Positions 12,587 to 48,100 of a stretch of DNA of 64,000 nucleotides are shown piece by piece. This DNA is from Peptococcaceae bacterium BRH_c8a (lineage in GTDB: Bacteria; Bacillota; Desulfotomaculia; Desulfotomaculales; Desulfallaceae): NCBI GenBank assembly GCA_000961575.1, contig LADP01000046.1, positions 1 through 64,000 of the forward strand, in the 5' to 3' direction. Numbering within the stretch: the stretch's first letter is position 1; each line of letters opens with the position of its first letter. The position numbers and the translations under genes are program-made. The notes beneath the pieces are model-generated. The model saw only the letters and a program-made list of their open reading frames with translations. It made no database searches and was not told the DNA's origin.

Positions 12587-13228
12587 TCATTTTGTTTCCA
12601 AATACACGATTCTGTCCGCTAAAACTTTAGCATCTTGTTGGTCGTGGGTGACAAAAATAGTCGTAATGAATGCTTTTTTTAGGATCTTTCTTAAAACATC
12701 CCTTATTTTTATTTGCAGGTCGGCATCAAGATTACTAAAGGGCTCGTCCAATAGCAGCACCGCCGGTTGGGGGGCAATGGCCCGGGCCAAGGCTACCCTT
12801 TGCTGCTGACCTCCGCTTAGTTCATGGGGGTAGCGCTTTGCGAAATCCTGCAGGCTTACCAGTGCCAGCACCTCGGCCACCCTTTGGTTTTTCTTCTGTT
12901 TGTTATATTTTTTCAGACCGTATTTTATGTTCTTTTCCACCGTCATGTGCTGGAACAGGGCATAGTCTTGAAACACCATGCCCACCCCCCGGTTTTCCGG
13001 GGCAATGCAAGTTTTTGCATCAAAAACAACTTGATTGTTAATTCCAATCAGCCCGCCATTGGGCCTTTCCAGCCCGGCAATTAGCCTTAACACGGTACTT
13101 TTACCACAACCGCTGGGGCCTAAAATGGAAATTATCTCCCCTTCATTAATATCCAGGCTGAAATTATCAACAGCTGCGGCTTCGGCATTTGGATATTGAA
13201 AGCTTAAATTCTTTATTTCAATATACAT
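12587..13228 (-). CDS. fbpC: ferric-iron ABC transporter ATPase
   Basis: 213 residues from ATG 13228, which shares its A with the TGA stop of the permease gene (TGATG). Walker A (GPSGCGKST), signature (LSGGQQQRVALARA), Walker B (VLLLDEPFSNLD) and H-loop (VTHD) are all present. It lacks the ~120-residue C-terminal regulatory (TOBE) domain found in many FbpC proteins. It should energise uptake through FbpB of ferric iron delivered by FbpA. Confidence 0.85.
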   Translation of the reverse strand: MYIEIKNLSFQYPNAEAAAVDNFSLDINEGEIISILGPSGCGKSTVLRLIAGLERPNGGLIGINNQVVFDAKTCIAPENRGVGMVFQDYALFQHMTVEKNIKYGLKKYNKQKKNQRVAEVLALVSLQDFAKRYPHELSGGQQQRVALARAIAPQPAVLLLDEPFSNLDADLQIKIRDVLRKILKKAFITTIFVTHDQQDAKVLADRIVYLETK

Positions 13229-14877
13229 CAGTAATCCCCCCTTGTTGTTACGTGATGGAAAAACAAAATAGCCATAAAACTGATACCAATAATAATCATT
13301 GAGGGAACCGCGGCTTCGGCTAACATTTCATCGCTGGCGTACTGAAACACTTTGGTGGCCAATGTATCAAAATTAAAAGGCCTTAAGAGCAACGTCAACG
13401 GTAATTCCTTAAGCACCTCTACAAAGACTAATACACAACTGCTAAAAATGGCAGGCTTAAGCATCGGTAAATCTATCTTCATAAAGGTTTCGATGGTGCC
13501 TGCCCCCAGTATGCGGGAAGCTTCAAAAAACTTCTTTCCTGCTTTTTCAAACCCGGCTTGGATGGAGTTAAAGCCCATGGCCAAAAATCTAATCACGTAG
13601 GCAAAAATTAGCATGGCTATGCTGGCTGTTAAAACCAACCCGCTGGAATTAATGTTTAGAGTATTGTAAAACCAAGTTAATTGGTTATCCAAACTAATAA
13701 AAAAAACCATAACCCCAATGGCAATTACCGCCCCGGGAACTGTATAACCAATGACGGTAATGTTGGCATAAATCTTAGCGGTGGCAGCGTGTTCGTTAAT
13801 GCGGCAATAGTTAGCTACAATAACCGCGATAATTACAATTAGTACCATAGCCGTAAAGGCCAACGACAAGGAATTAAACAGTAACTGAAAAAACTGAGCA
13901 TTTAAAGTGCTGTGGTAAGTGATCAAACTCCAGTATAAAAGCTGCAGAGTGGGAAGTAAGAAACCTAAGCTGAAAATAAAAAAGCAATAGCTAAAAGCCG
14001 CCGTACCTTTTAAACCAGTAAGCACCTGCGGCGAAATTGGTCTCACTTTAGCGGTGGTGTCGCTGTACTTTTGTGTGCCCCTTAAATACTTTTCACTAAT
14101 TAAAATAACAGCCACCATTAACATTAATATTGCCGCCAACCTGATTGCGGAATTAAGGTCCCCCATGCCAAACCAGCTTTTAAATATGGCGGTACTAAAG
14201 GTGGGAATACCAAAATACTGTACAACCCCGTAATCATTTAACACTTCCAACGCCACCAAGCTAACGCCGCCAATGATGGCCGCCCGGGAGCAGGGCAAAA
14301 CAATGGTAAAAAAAATATCGCCGGGTTTGCGACCTAACATGCGGGCACATTCAATTAACGAAGCGGATTGTTTTTCTAAAAACGCCCGGGTGATGGTGTA
14401 GACATAGGGGAACAAGCAAAGGGTAAAAATAAAAATTGCCCCTTCTATATTCATGATGTCAAAGTATTTTTGATTGACCTGAACGTCAAACCTGTTTCTT
14501 AACTGCGTTTGAATAACACCGGTGTAGCCAAGCATTCCGCTATATGTATAGGCGGCAATATTGGCCGGCAGCGCCAGCGGCAATATCATCGCCCACTTAA
14601 AAAATTTTTTCATTGGGAAATCATACACCGTTACCAGCCAGGACAAGCTGGTGCCGATTATAGCGGTGGTAATGCCGGTTATCAAAACCAGTGTAACTGT
14701 GTTCAGAAGATAATCTTTGAGCAAGTATTCTTTAATGTGCCACCAGGATTCATTGGCCGGTTGCAGTAAATTAATGAAAATATGCAGGCTGGATAAAAGG
14801 AGCAATGAGATGATGATAAAACTGGTCACCGACCAAAGGTCCAGGTTTGCTTTTATTTTTTGCCATACTGTTGTCAC
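13228..14877 (-). CDS. fbpB: ferric-iron ABC transporter permease, fused double domain
   Basis: About 549 residues. GTG 14877 is favoured, eight bases after AGGGG; GTG 14886 is too close. There are about twelve membrane helices in two homologous halves. Each half carries an EAA-type cytoplasmic loop (ECARMLGRKPGDIFF... and EASRILGAGTIETF...) that contacts the ATPase. This is the FbpB/SfuB architecture for Fe(III) uptake. A stable hairpin separates it from fbpA, which may lower expression relative to the binding protein. Confidence 0.85.
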   Translation of the reverse strand: MTTVWQKIKANLDLWSVTSFIIISLLLLSSLHIFINLLQPANESWWHIKEYLLKDYLLNTVTLVLITGITTAIIGTSLSWLVTVYDFPMKKFFKWAMILPLALPANIAAYTYSGMLGYTGVIQTQLRNRFDVQVNQKYFDIMNIEGAIFIFTLCLFPYVYTITRAFLEKQSASLIECARMLGRKPGDIFFTIVLPCSRAAIIGGVSLVALEVLNDYGVVQYFGIPTFSTAIFKSWFGMGDLNSAIRLAAILMLMVAVILISEKYLRGTQKYSDTTAKVRPISPQVLTGLKGTAAFSYCFFIFSLGFLLPTLQLLYWSLITYHSTLNAQFFQLLFNSLSLAFTAMVLIVIIAVIVANYCRINEHAATAKIYANITVIGYTVPGAVIAIGVMVFFISLDNQLTWFYNTLNINSSGLVLTASIAMLIFAYVIRFLAMGFNSIQAGFEKAGKKFFEASRILGAGTIETFMKIDLPMLKPAIFSSCVLVFVEVLKELPLTLLLRPFNFDTLATKVFQYASDEMLAEAAVPSMIIIGISFMAILFFHHVTTRGDY

Positions 14878-14896
14878 TGCTGTCACCCCTAAAGGG

Positions 14897-14922
14897 TAAG
14901 CAGCCCACTACCAGGCTGCTTA
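14897..14922 (-). terminator. hairpin between fbpA and fbpB
   Basis: TAAGCAGCC and GGCTGCTTA form a perfect 9-bp stem. The T-run lies on the plus-strand side, so on the minus transcript it more likely acts as a processing or stabilising hairpin than as a full terminator. Confidence 0.45.
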
Positions 14923-14980
14923 CTTTTTCATACTTCCAGGAAATCATGCCAGCTATTAGCGGTCAGTGGATACTTTCTTG

Positions 14981-16057
14981 TTATTTCCACCCAACTTGAT
15001 TAAATATTTCCACGGCTTTTTGGTTGTGTACACCCAATAAAGTTAGATTAATGTCCTGGGCCCTAAAATCTCCCCATGATTTAAGCAAATCCGCCGGTTC
15101 TACATTAACGTTTACAGGGTATTCGTAGTTGGCTTCAGCAAATTGTGTTTGTGCTTTTTCGCCGGCCAGGAATTCCATCAGTGTAACAGCGTTTGAATGG
15201 TTTTTAGCATATTTGGTTAACCCCACTCCGCTAACATTGATGTGGGTACCGGTAGTATCCTGGTTGGGGAAGAACACACCCACTTGCTCAGCTACTTTCA
15301 CTTCTTCAGGGTCGGACGAGTTGAGCATTTTACCTATGTAATAGGTATTCATAATAGCAATATCACCTTCACCTGCCACCACCGCTTTGGCTTGGTCCCG
15401 GTCATTACCCTTTGGTTCTCTGGCCATATTGACCACCATACCTGCTGCCCAATCCTTCGCTTGTTCTTCACCGTTGATAGCGATAATTGAAGCCAGCAGC
15501 GATTGATTATATATGTTGTTGGCAGGCCTCACTAATACTTTCCCCTGCCATTTGGGGCTGGTTAAATCTTCGTAGGTGGATAGTTCAGCCGGTTTTACCC
15601 GATCTTTAGCATAAACTATTACTCTTGCTCTTACTGTCAAACCAAACCATTGATAATCTTGGTCCCGCAAGTTTGCCGGTATGCTGTTAGTGAGTACTTC
15701 GCTGATAACCGGCTGCAGCAGCCCTTGTGCCTTAGCCCGGTGCAATCTGCCGGCATCTGCGGTGATTAACAAGTCTGCTTCGGTGCCATTTCCCTCCCGA
15801 GCCAGTCTTTCTATTAGTTCATCAGAGTTACCTTTAACTACATTCACCTTAATGCCAGTTTCCTCGGTAAATAATTTAAACAGCTTTTCGTCGGTATCAT
15901 AATGTCTGTCAGTATAAAGGTTAACTACACCGCTATCTGCTGCACCTGCACCGCTACTGGTCTCAGCTTTCTTTGGTGCGCCACCACAAGCAGAAAGTAC
16001 AAACATGGAAAGAATAAATAGAGTAATTAAAGGTAATACTTTCAAATTTTGTTTCAT
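14981..16057 (-). CDS. fbpA: ferric-iron-binding lipoprotein
   Basis: 358 residues from ATG 16057, nine bases after GAGG (an ATG two codons earlier is too close). The signal peptide ends in a lipobox (LSAC), so it is anchored outside the membrane. The body is a periplasmic-binding-protein type II fold of the FbpA/FutA group: VNLYTDRHYDTDEKL near the start, ADLLITADAGRL, and a Tyr pair in MNTYYIGKM, where the family places its iron-ligand tyrosines. A Fur box lies ~30-50 bases upstream. Confidence 0.85.
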   Translation of the reverse strand: MKQNLKVLPLITLFILSMFVLSACGGAPKKAETSSGAGAADSGVVNLYTDRHYDTDEKLFKLFTEETGIKVNVVKGNSDELIERLAREGNGTEADLLITADAGRLHRAKAQGLLQPVISEVLTNSIPANLRDQDYQWFGLTVRARVIVYAKDRVKPAELSTYEDLTSPKWQGKVLVRPANNIYNQSLLASIIAINGEEQAKDWAAGMVVNMAREPKGNDRDQAKAVVAGEGDIAIMNTYYIGKMLNSSDPEEVKVAEQVGVFFPNQDTTGTHINVSGVGLTKYAKNHSNAVTLMEFLAGEKAQTQFAEANYEYPVNVNVEPADLLKSWGDFRAQDINLTLLGVHNQKAVEIFNQVGWK

Positions 16058-16087
16058 TGTCATTCACCTCGATGTAATATTACTGGC

Positions 16088-16106
16088 GTAAACGATTATC
16101 ATTATC
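16088..16106 (-). promoter_or_regulatory. Fur box upstream of fbpA
   Basis: GATTATCATTATC at 16094-16106 matches 12 of 13 positions of half of the Fur consensus and is preceded by GTAAAC. It lies just upstream of the fbpA ribosome site. Confidence 0.65.
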
Positions 16107-16164
16107 ACTATAAGAATATATTTATCCCAACAAATTTTAAACAAACTATTTATATAGTCAGAAG

Positions 16165-16449
16165 TCAATCAATCATTGATTTAATTTGTTGAGACATTTT
16201 CGCCCATGAACGATTGGTATAAATTATCGGAACATTGTGATCTTTTGCCTTTTGCTTTATCAACCCGGAAATGCAATGATTTACGTAATCTGTAAACACA
16301 ATAATTAAGTTTGACTCCTTTGGAATTAAAAGGCTTCCTTTCTTGTACTTTTTTCTTCCCTTTTCATGAATTATAATATTAAAACCTAGCTGTTTAAGGT
16401 TTTCCCTAATATTGCCAAGATTGTCGCCGCCAACTACAAAGACAGACAT
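16165..16449 (-). CDS. DUF2325 protein
   Basis: 94 residues from ATG 16449 with AGGAGG seven bases upstream. The Rossmann-like fold shows MSVFVVGGDNLGNI at the start, SNLIIVFTDYVNH in the middle and NVPIIYTNRSW near the end, as in DUF2325 (PF10087). Members are often beside iron or hydrogenase genes, but their function is not established. It lies between two Fur-type sites and runs into fbpABC. Confidence 0.75.
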   Translation of the reverse strand: MSVFVVGGDNLGNIRENLKQLGFNIIIHEKGRKKYKKGSLLIPKESNLIIVFTDYVNHCISGLIKQKAKDHNVPIIYTNRSWAKMSQQIKSMID

Positions 16450-16547
16450 CCCCAAGCCTCCTGCTTTTAATTAGTTTATTAACGTTAACGAGTTGCAAGA
16501 GGTTTATGCAACTTTTTAGAATTTTTATCAACAAAGATACAAAAAAA

Positions 16548-16667
16548 CTATTTTCCTTGTTTTAAGCTATCTTGTTTGCAGGAACACTGATCGCAACTAC
16601 ACTTTCTATTATTATTTTTAACTGGAGTTTTGCGCAAATGAATAAGTCTACCTAATATCTTTTTCAT
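16548..16667 (-). CDS. 39-residue Cys-rich peptide under Fur control
   Basis: ATG 16667 follows GGGGGTG. The peptide has a basic N-terminal half (KKILGRLIHLRKTP) and a compact CSCDQCSC motif (residues 23-30). It is the first gene below the multi-Fur site at 16691-16734. The motif could bind an iron-sulfur cluster, zinc or iron. I do not recognise the family. Confidence 0.5.
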   Translation of the reverse strand: MKKILGRLIHLRKTPVKNNNRKCSCDQCSCKQDSLKQGK

Positions 16668-16690
16668 GGTCTTAACCACCCCCTTATTAT

Positions 16691-16734
16691 GATTATGATA
16701 ATGATGATTATGATAATGATTATCATTATCATAA
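16691..16734 (-). promoter_or_regulatory. multi-Fur operator
   Basis: The 19-mer GATAATGATTATCATTATC (16712-16730) differs from the classical Fur box at one position. It sits in a 27-bp perfect palindrome (16708-16734), and the 15-bp unit GATTATGATAATGAT occurs twice in tandem (16691-16720). This arrangement fits cooperative binding of several Fur dimers. It should control the Cys-rich peptide, the DUF2325 gene and probably fbpABC. Confidence 0.85.
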
Positions 16735-16989
16735 TAAGAGTAAAAATTTTTGTCAAGTTTTTTATTTTATCTTTATTTATAGGATAGTGGATAAGGTCGT
16801 CTGTATCAGCTTTGCATGGCAACATTTTCCTTTAATATGGAGCATAACTTTATTTCCCTCTCTCAGTAATGGCGCCTTAACGTGGCGTCTTTTTTATTTA
16901 AATCGCTCAAAACTCCGGTAGCATTTACCACCTGAAATTCATAATATATTCCGGTACCATAATAGACCTTTGCAAAGGAGGATTCTTTA

Positions 16990-17085
16990 ATGGGCTATGG
17001 AGCAAAAGGATTTGACGGAAGTTTTATTCTATTTTTGATTCTGATTTTGCTAGTATTCGGTATTGGTTTCTTCCCCAAATACTAA
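16990..17085 (+). CDS. YjcZ-family mini-protein
   Basis: 31 residues from ATG 16990 with AAAGGAGG upstream. A short Gly-rich head (MGYGAKGFDGSF) is followed by one hydrophobic helix (ILFLILILLVFGIGFF). This is the YjcZ/sporulation small-protein pattern. A near-identical paralogue is at 44799-44903. A terminator follows. Confidence 0.75.
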   Translation: MGYGAKGFDGSFILFLILILLVFGIGFFPKY

Positions 17086-45822: not shown

Positions 45823-46616
45823 TCAATCGTTGTAGGTTGTTTCATCAACCTCACTTCTTTTTAATAAGGTCTGTTCTAATCGGTAGGACTCCAGGACATT
45901 CATGTTCAGTATATGTGAACGGAATGTTACCCTGTCAATTAAAGCTGCCACCATAATTTCGTTTTCAAACAGATCTGTCCAGCTGGAAAACTCAAGATTA
46001 GTAGTCACAATAATACTCGCCCTTTCAGAGCGCTCTGATATTACCTGAAAAAGCATCTCGGATTGATAACGGTTAAAGGTAAGGTAGCTGAGCTCATCTA
46101 TTATCAACAAGTCAATTTTTGCTAGGCCTTTTTCAAGTTTGGTCAGCCGGTGGAACTGTACTGCCTCCGCAAGTTCGTTTGCTAGGTTTGTTGCTGTATA
46201 GAATTGTTAAATCCAGCGTAACAGGCTTTCATGCCTAGCCCTATGGACAAATGCGACTTTCCAGAACCCGGGTTACCTATCATTACGATGTTTTGCCGGT
46301 TTGTAATATAGTCACAAGATGCAAGTTCCCATATGAAGGATTCGGATACGTGCTCGAGCCGTCTGTAATCAAACTCGTCAAGAGTCTTCATAACTGGGAA
46401 CCCGGCCTTTTTAATCCGTCGTTTTTGCCCTGCTTCCTGTCGCTGTATAACTTCCTGCTTCATGAGCTGGCACAGAAATTTATCGTACCCGTCACCAGGC
46501 TCTAGCTGCCTGACAACATTTTCATAACCTGCAAACGTCGGAGTTTTAAGTTGTTTTGCATATAGTTTTATGGTTTCTTTAACGGGGTTTATCTTGGCAG
46601 AATCTACTCCAGTCAT
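45823..46616 (-). pseudogene. istB: IS21 helper ATPase IstB, frameshifted
   Basis: The first part (46616-46182) carries the N-terminal domain and Walker A (GNPGSGKSHL) and ends in NNSIQQQT. The other frame continues as FYTATNLANELAEAVQFHRL, then the Walker B LLIIDELSYL and the C-terminus to 45823. A one-base shift near 46195 splits it. IstB assists the transposase and converts the target to a reactive form. Its start overlaps the istA stop by four bases. A programmed frameshift is not known for istB, so it is probably broken. Confidence 0.75.
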
Positions 46617-48100
46617 ACTGCAGCCACCCCGTTTTTCATTAGATTGTTATACCTATCAAGCTGGGGTTTTGACACTTTGACATCTATCTGTGGATGTATT
46701 GTTGTTGGTTTATCTACTGGTATCAAATGTGCCCGTATCTGTTCTACGAATATTTCAGGGCTTTGTATGTAGCCTATAGCGGCCATGAGCTTGTCTTCCC
46801 CATAGTCAACAAATAGCCGCAAAAGCTTTACCATTTCCAGCGGTCCAGATAGTCGTTTACCTATCTCAAGCAACTCAGCTGAAATATTGCTCTTTACAGG
46901 TTTGGCGTTAAATACGCTGCGGGGCCGTTTCTCAATAAGATCTATGTAATGCTCAAGCCTGTATTTGGTTTGTCCTCTTTGGTAACAGCGCTGGTACTTG
47001 GCTATTTCATTATTCCGGTATAACATCGCAACCTCATTGCCATAGCCCTTAATGCTAACTTCTTTTCCGGCATATTTTACCGGTACAGAGTAGTGGTTGT
47101 AGTCAAATCTAACCGTGGAAAAATCGTCAACTCTTGCGGTCATACTTTTGCTGGGGTTAAATCTGTACCGGGGCAACTGGGTCAGCCTTACTCTTGTAGT
47201 CTTTGCCATCTCACCTACGGTCTGTTCTCTCCCTTTTATCTTGTGCTCACGGTATTTGAGGCACCGGCGCAATATCTCGGCGTTTAGCTCGTCCATGGTA
47301 GCTACTCTTGGTATGGGCACTAATATATTACGCCTTGCCCAACCTACAAGACCCTCAACAAGGCCTTTTTCGTGCCCAGCCGCTATATTACAGTATTCAC
47401 ATTTAAAGGCATAATGAGCTGCTAAGGCTTTATATCTATCCTGAGTTTTTGCATGTGCGCCAAAGCCTTCTTTTACTGCAACTTTGGCATTGTCAAATAT
47501 CATGCGCTTAGGCGCCCCATCAAAATACTCGAAGCCATTAATTTGACCCTCAAGAAAGCTTTCTTCATTCTGGCGGTAAAAGCCCCGGCAGTATATATCT
47601 GCACTGTAACATTCGCGCATACAAAACAGATTTACTTTGATTTTTTTGCCGGCCAAATATATTGTTGCCTCGCCCCAGTCTATCTGGATTGCTTCTCCTG
47701 GTTCATATGATAACGGCACAAATACCTTTCTCTGCTTGTCTTTTAGTTTGGCAACTATCTCGCGTATCGTTGATTCGCCACCATTAAAGCCTTTTTCATC
47801 CACTAGCCGATCATATATCCGTTTCGCTGTGTGCTTCTGTTTTTTTATGTTCTCTACTTCATCAGAGGCAAGGCAGCTTTTTATAAATTCCATGATTTCG
47901 TCGGTTACAACATACTGCCGACGTCCGCTTAACCCCTGGCGTTCCCATGGCACATGTGAACCATCACAATACTTCTTGACCGTGTTGCGTGACACCCCGA
48001 GCATTTTGGATATCGCTCTTTGTGACTTGCCTTCATGTTCGTGTAAATGCCGTATCTTTTCATAAAGTTCCACTTCTATTGGCACCCTTTCACCCCGCAT
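46613..48100 (-). CDS. istA: IS21-family transposase IstA
   Basis: 495 residues from ATG 48100. The N-terminal helix-turn-helix (SQRAISKMLGVSRNTVKKYC) is followed by the DDE catalytic core: IQIDWGEATIYL (first Asp), MIFDNAKVAV (second Asp) and the Glu in AAGHEKGLVEG. The C-terminal beta domain has FDYNHYSVPVKYAG. The gene is intact; activity would depend on a working IstB. Confidence 0.85.
   Translation of the reverse strand: MRGERVPIEVELYEKIRHLHEHEGKSQRAISKMLGVSRNTVKKYCDGSHVPWERQGLSGRRQYVVTDEIMEFIKSCLASDEVENIKKQKHTAKRIYDRLVDEKGFNGGESTIREIVAKLKDKQRKVFVPLSYEPGEAIQIDWGEATIYLAGKKIKVNLFCMRECYSADIYCRGFYRQNEESFLEGQINGFEYFDGAPKRMIFDNAKVAVKEGFGAHAKTQDRYKALAAHYAFKCEYCNIAAGHEKGLVEGLVGWARRNILVPIPRVATMDELNAEILRRCLKYREHKIKGREQTVGEMAKTTRVRLTQLPRYRFNPSKSMTARVDDFSTVRFDYNHYSVPVKYAGKEVSIKGYGNEVAMLYRNNEIAKYQRCYQRGQTKYRLEHYIDLIEKRPRSVFNAKPVKSNISAELLEIGKRLSGPLEMVKLLRLFVDYGEDKLMAAIGYIQSPEIFVEQIRAHLIPVDKPTTIHPQIDVKVSKPQLDRYNNLMKNGVAAV

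Follow-up and report, generated by a model that had tools for sequence, protein, structure and literature searches.

A cysteine-rich peptide of 39 residues is encoded in the window directly beneath a predicted Fur operator and directly in front of a DUF2325 gene, and this arrangement recurs in two further genomes. The window is the whole stretch of DNA that was analysed, 64,000 nucleotides of contig LADP01000046.1 from Peptococcaceae bacterium BRH_c8a. We see an about even chance that the product is a cytosolic peptide under Fur repression whose thiolates bind Fe2+ or an Fe-S cluster and which acts together with DUF2325; it would resemble FeoC and the FeoB-associated peptides while standing outside those families. 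The features of the locus are the following:

16728-16756, minus strand: sigma-70-like promoter TTGACA-17-TATGAT with 11/12 matches, its -10 element inside the predicted Fur operator
16707-16735: 29-bp perfect palindrome, predicted Fur operator, holding an exact 19-bp Fur box and overlapping copies
16686-16715: tandem 15-bp direct repeats (16686-16700 and 16701-16715) extending the predicted Fur operator
16676-16685, minus strand: Shine-Dalgarno sequence AAGGGGGTGG, 8 nt 5' of the peptide ATG
16548-16667 including the stop codon, minus strand: Cys-rich peptide ORF, 39 aa, CSCDQCSC, with homologues in genomes G027 and G055
16165-16449, minus strand: DUF2325 protein, 94 aa (PF10087, 51 bits against a curated cut-off of 33.6)
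16088-16106, minus strand: second predicted Fur box, between DUF2325 and fbpA, with 3 mismatches; G027 has an equivalent box
14981-16063, minus strand: fbpA/futA, ferric-iron-binding lipoprotein, similar to iron-binding proteins of the PDB (E 1.8e-105 to 2pt1)
13228-14886, minus strand: fbpB, permease with two BPD_transp domains
12587-13228, minus strand: fbpC, ABC ATPase

The peptide codons run from 16667 to 16551 on the minus strand, the stop codon reaches to 16548 (ATG...TAG), and the product would be MKKILGRLIHLRKTPVKNNNRKCSCDQCSCKQDSLKQGK. A 39-residue CxCx2CxC peptide with a good ribosome site had been described in the sequence-only reading, and the ORF, its CSCDQCSC motif and the Shine-Dalgarno sequence at the spacing given above were all confirmed. 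The four cysteines lie within eight residues of a strongly basic chain (net charge +9). CxCx2CxC was found in eight of the 4860 ORFs with a length of 30-60 aa that the window and the fetched loci contain: six copies of this peptide family, one FeoB-associated-like peptide and one unrelated ORF. Pfam and NCBIfam searches with the peptide gave no match. An N-terminal transmembrane helix was looked for by hydrophobicity in the window peptide and not found; the mean hydrophobicity of KKILGRLIHLRK is -0.29, whereas two FeoB-associated peptides reach +0.69 and +0.44. Anchoring in the membrane by an amphipathic N-terminal helix was also considered and rejected, since the hydrophobic moment does not exceed that of shuffled sequences. 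Elsewhere in the window, a 31-aa ORF with a good ribosome-binding site (MGYGAKGFDGSFILFLILILLVFGIGFFPKY; 16990-17085, plus strand) presumably resembles the small YjcZ-type sporulation membrane proteins, and at 46182-48100 on the minus strand an IS21-like IstA is accompanied by an IstB of 144 aa that seems shortened, judged from translations only.

The Fur box at 16712-16730 matches the consensus GATAATGATAATCATTATC at 19 of 19 positions, is accompanied by overlapping copies with one and two mismatches, and overlaps the -10 element, as is typical of a Fur-regulated unit. The window holds five Fur-box matches with at most three mismatches, whereas 0.04 are expected, and the exact 19-mer occurs only once in the 4.17-Mb genome, at this position. 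All other matches with at most two mismatches genome-wide either overlap this box or form one cluster on contig C48, in which the matches are about 75 nt apart and lie immediately 5' of feoA-feoB. The multi-Fur operator claimed earlier is thus present with its palindrome and tandem 15-bp repeat, although the palindrome measures 29 bp and not 27 bp. Judged from these sites, Fur would bind here and repress the peptide gene when iron is plentiful.

The peptide was detected in 3 of 113 genomes of the order Desulfotomaculales, namely the window genome (G000), G027 and G055, which belong to three different families. The G027 peptide is 79% identical to that of the window, and the layout Fur box, peptide, DUF2325, Fur box, fbpABC is common to both; the Shine-Dalgarno sequence of G027, AGGAGGTGG, is spaced from the ATG as in the window. 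In G055 the peptide reads MKKMFSKLVSTRKVSIKKKPKTCSCSNCTCKEASSNKKYS, with 38% identity and no loss among the four cysteines; there the order is Fur box, peptide, DUF2325, with 16 nt between the two genes and no fbp genes nearby. A Fur box lies 5' of the peptide in 3/3 loci and DUF2325 directly after it in 3/3. Reading frame, start, four cysteines and position are kept in both G027 and G055, and G055 also keeps the Shine-Dalgarno sequence. The claim of a conserved, Fur-controlled Cys peptide is borne out by this recurrence: neither the frame nor the Cys motif is lost in the two relatives that share the Fur site. With the window peptide alone as query, E-values of 1.6e-16 (G027) and 6e-5 (G055) were obtained; a profile of the three sequences, which its own members match by construction, gave 8.5e-25 to 2.6e-20. 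A phylum-wide search of 398 genomes with the peptide profile returned no convincing further member, and the inspected matches lay within or across unrelated genes; the weak matches L010, L169 and L170 were rejected as well, as they look like chance similarities within other genes or across them. A contig search with a profile of the DUF2325 alignment found three loci only, one of them with the same sequence as G055. By organism name, the DUF2325 relatives of one scan fall in Bacillota, Desulfofundulus among them.

Between the window and G027, synonymous divergence amounts to 0.42-0.55 in DUF2325, FbpA and FbpC; for enolase it has reached saturation between the two families (pS 0.78). Therefore, by its divergence, the cassette (window 12587-16735, peptide-DUF2325-fbpABC) has moved horizontally between two families in a recent transfer. 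In G027, fbpB (L078, G027:C2:62000-74000) is split into two overlapping ORFs of 206 and 356 aa by a frameshift or an assembly error, and the Fbp cassette that was transferred may therefore have no activity in this genome. The peptide dN between window and G027 is 0.088, about one fifth of the dS in the neighbouring cassette genes, which suggests constraint at the protein level. The peptide's own dS is 0.11 (two changes), low compared with its neighbours, and its internal dN/dS of about 0.8 comes from very few sites and is uninformative alone. These two values would also suit a chance ORF that yields no product; however, the independent homologue in G055 keeps Shine-Dalgarno sequence, start, four cysteines and position, and CxCx2CxC occurs in only about 1 of 4860 unrelated small ORFs, and we regard a chance ORF as extremely improbable.

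Alternatively, the ORF might be a leader peptide whose reading by the ribosome controls the downstream genes, for example as a Cys-codon attenuator, with a functionless product. The ORF is short and the first after the promoter, and a small hairpin (GTTGCA...TGCAAC) between peptide and DUF2325 is identical in G027. No minus-strand terminator was found before DUF2325, however, and the RNA folding of the leader is no better than that of shuffled sequences (z -0.06). Furthermore, the gap in G055 is too short for an attenuator, and the cysteines are conserved at the protein level even at the low identity of that homologue. A leader function is considered very unlikely, and we infer that the peptide is translated as a product in its own right.

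In the window, 98 nt separate the peptide from DUF2325, and a gap of 101 nt holding the second Fur box separates DUF2325 from fbpA, fbpB and fbpC. By sequence, FbpA belongs to the FutA/cFbpA type (2pt1, 2voz, 1y4t and 1q35 at E 1e-105 to 1e-70). The peptide had been proposed as the first gene of a Fur regulon that continues with DUF2325 and fbpABC. This gene order was found, but fbpA has its own Fur box at 16088-16106, and therefore peptide-DUF2325 probably forms one Fur unit and fbpABC a second one next to it, rather than both forming a single peptide-headed operon. Likewise, the peptide upstream of DUF2325-fbp genes was recovered as a full set in G027, but in G055 with DUF2325 and no fbp. 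A factor for the Fbp system specifically, as the sequence-only reading suggested, did not hold up well, because the conserved partner of the peptide is DUF2325; besides the separate Fur box of fbpA and the G055 pair, the linkage to fbp in G027 is not independent evidence, since the copy there sits in the horizontally transferred cassette. FbpABC/FutABC ferric transporters are represented in the window and G027 by the downstream fbp genes with a Fur box in front, but G055 has peptide and DUF2325 side by side without them. To our knowledge, canonical FbpABC/FutABC systems contain neither a Cys peptide nor DUF2325.

The context of DUF2325 was analysed in 80 single-domain loci obtained from the order and phylum searches (L078-L097, L171-L230). 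In 29 of these 80, the fetched stretch of a few kb includes a feoB gene in the same orientation as DUF2325. A Fur-like box, scored where 15 or more of the 19 positions matched within 450 nt upstream, was found in 27/80, compared with 0-1/80 when these upstream regions were dinucleotide-shuffled ten times, and 51/80 loci have feoB, a Fur-like box or both. With 1-4 copies of feoB per genome of about 3 Mb, a random gene would lie this near feoB in about 1% of cases, a figure that is our own estimate and not that of a control run. On this genomic evidence, DUF2325 as a single domain belongs in general to the iron genes of Bacillota. Handling of iron or Fe-S clusters, as proposed earlier for the peptide, becomes more likely because DUF2325 generally stands in a FeoB/Fur context; the role itself is what we infer from that context. 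Near the three peptide loci feoB was looked for and not found; in G000, G027 and G055 the feoB genes are located in other parts of the genome. Many DUF2325 proteins (L085, L093-L097, L177, L219 and others) end in a Cys-rich tail such as CNGCCTGNCP, CDKCFQNCC or CNNCQGC, and possibly this tail is a built-in version of the free peptide. A strict either/or between tail and separate peptide was rejected, as L093-L097 carry both. Within the library that was searched, no paper was found to connect DUF2325 with Feo or with a Cys peptide of its own gene.

In at least eight loci (L093-L097, L203, L212, L218), a gene between feoB and DUF2325 encodes a small protein that is rich in Cys and has a hydrophobic helix at its N-terminus. 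The motifs in L093 and L097, CGCNGCTC and CGCSGCTC, are nearly identical to CSCDQCSC/CSCSNCTC. PF12669 (FeoB_associated) is matched by five proteins of this type from DUF2325 loci, in one case above the curated cut-off and in the others below it; the PF12669 model did not match the peptides of the window, G027 and G055. Like PF12669 members, the window peptide is a tiny Cys-rich product just 5' of DUF2325 in an iron locus, with a basic linker before a C-terminal Cys-rich motif that is close to the CGCxGCTC of some members. However, it was not placed in this family, because it has no transmembrane helix, no adjacent feoB and no match to PF12669. By analogy, it plausibly works like the members of this family from outside it. 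FeoC, a protein of about 80 aa with a winged-helix fold, is known from gammaproteobacteria. It, too, is small, cytosolic and Cys-rich and is accessory to an iron importer unit, but the window peptide has 39 aa, no Pfam match and no feoB and does not qualify as a FeoC. The Cys motif of E. coli FeoC forms a [4Fe-4S] cluster (PMC8749426). As for the FeoB-associated peptides, the spacing of CSCDQCSC differs from their general Cx3-5Cx2-3Cx6-8C (PMC8749426). Translation and function of the small FeoB-associated Cys peptides were stated to be open in 2022 (PMC8749426).

Cj1384c, a DUF2325 gene of C. jejuni, carries a Fur repression motif, and its expression is derepressed when fur is mutated (PMC4491227). 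It shows a strong iron response and its product has 7 Cys (PMC4491227, PMC3815106, PMC9426514); it is also controlled by PerR and strongly induced by light/ROS (PMC9426514). A Cys-rich, highly iron-responsive DUF2325 unit under Fur repression (PMC4491227, PMC9426514) would be common to Cj1384c and, by prediction, the window, but in Cj1384c all seven cysteines are inside the DUF2325 protein, no separate peptide is described, and the gene lies beside katA. ROS quenching by the Cj1384 cysteines was suggested by the authors (PMC9426514), and together with the four cysteines in eight residues of a chain of net charge +9 this would agree with a thiol buffer, a metallothionein-like scavenger of soft metals (Zn, Cu, Cd) or ROS during importer derepression, for which iron is only the trigger. 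The Fur box and the DUF2325/FeoB linkage point instead to an iron-specific role, and a thiol buffer seems quite unlikely to us.

The DUF2325 model shows a receiver/Rossmann-like alpha-beta fold (pLDDT 86.6). A fold search returned only common alpha/beta arrangements, none at E <= 0.001, and no informative structural relative. The likeness to receiver domains is weak, with Z 7-8, which is common by chance. It is nevertheless conceivable that the peptide, as has been proposed for FeoC, acts as a metal or redox sensor and not as an iron carrier, and that with an Fe-S cluster or zinc it signals the iron or oxygen state to a receiver-like DUF2325. Besides the weak receiver likeness, the FeoC cluster and the PerR control and light/ROS induction of Cj1384c are consistent with such a sensor; the unit has no output domain, however, and taken together with the poor specificity of the Z scores this makes a sensor unlikely.

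For the Fur-repressed thiolate peptide that we favour, we propose the following course of events. At low iron, Fur would be released, and the peptide and its partner DUF2325 would be made together. In the cytosol, Fe2+ or an Fe-S cluster would be bound by the four thiolates of CxCx2CxC. The pair might buffer, sense or hand on newly imported iron, with the peptide, perhaps in physical contact with DUF2325, passing iron or iron status to DUF2325 and its clients. It would act as the PF12669 peptides and FeoC are thought to act at FeoB, though with no membrane anchor and no tie to FeoB. More tentatively, and with clear doubt on our part, DUF2325 may form, together with a CxCx2CxC mini-protein, a module for cytosolic iron relay that has gone unrecognised in Bacillota and that serves iron(II) import by Feo as well as iron(III) import by Fbp; the mini-protein would be a free peptide, one anchored in the membrane at FeoB, or a Cys tail on the DUF2325 protein itself. 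Iron handling between the import pore and the cytosolic pool is poorly known in Gram-positive anaerobes. A soluble, free-standing, Fur-controlled peptide with DUF2325 would be a simple two-protein system for metal-binding tests, and the DUF2325 family, so far without a known function, would gain a testable role in iron.
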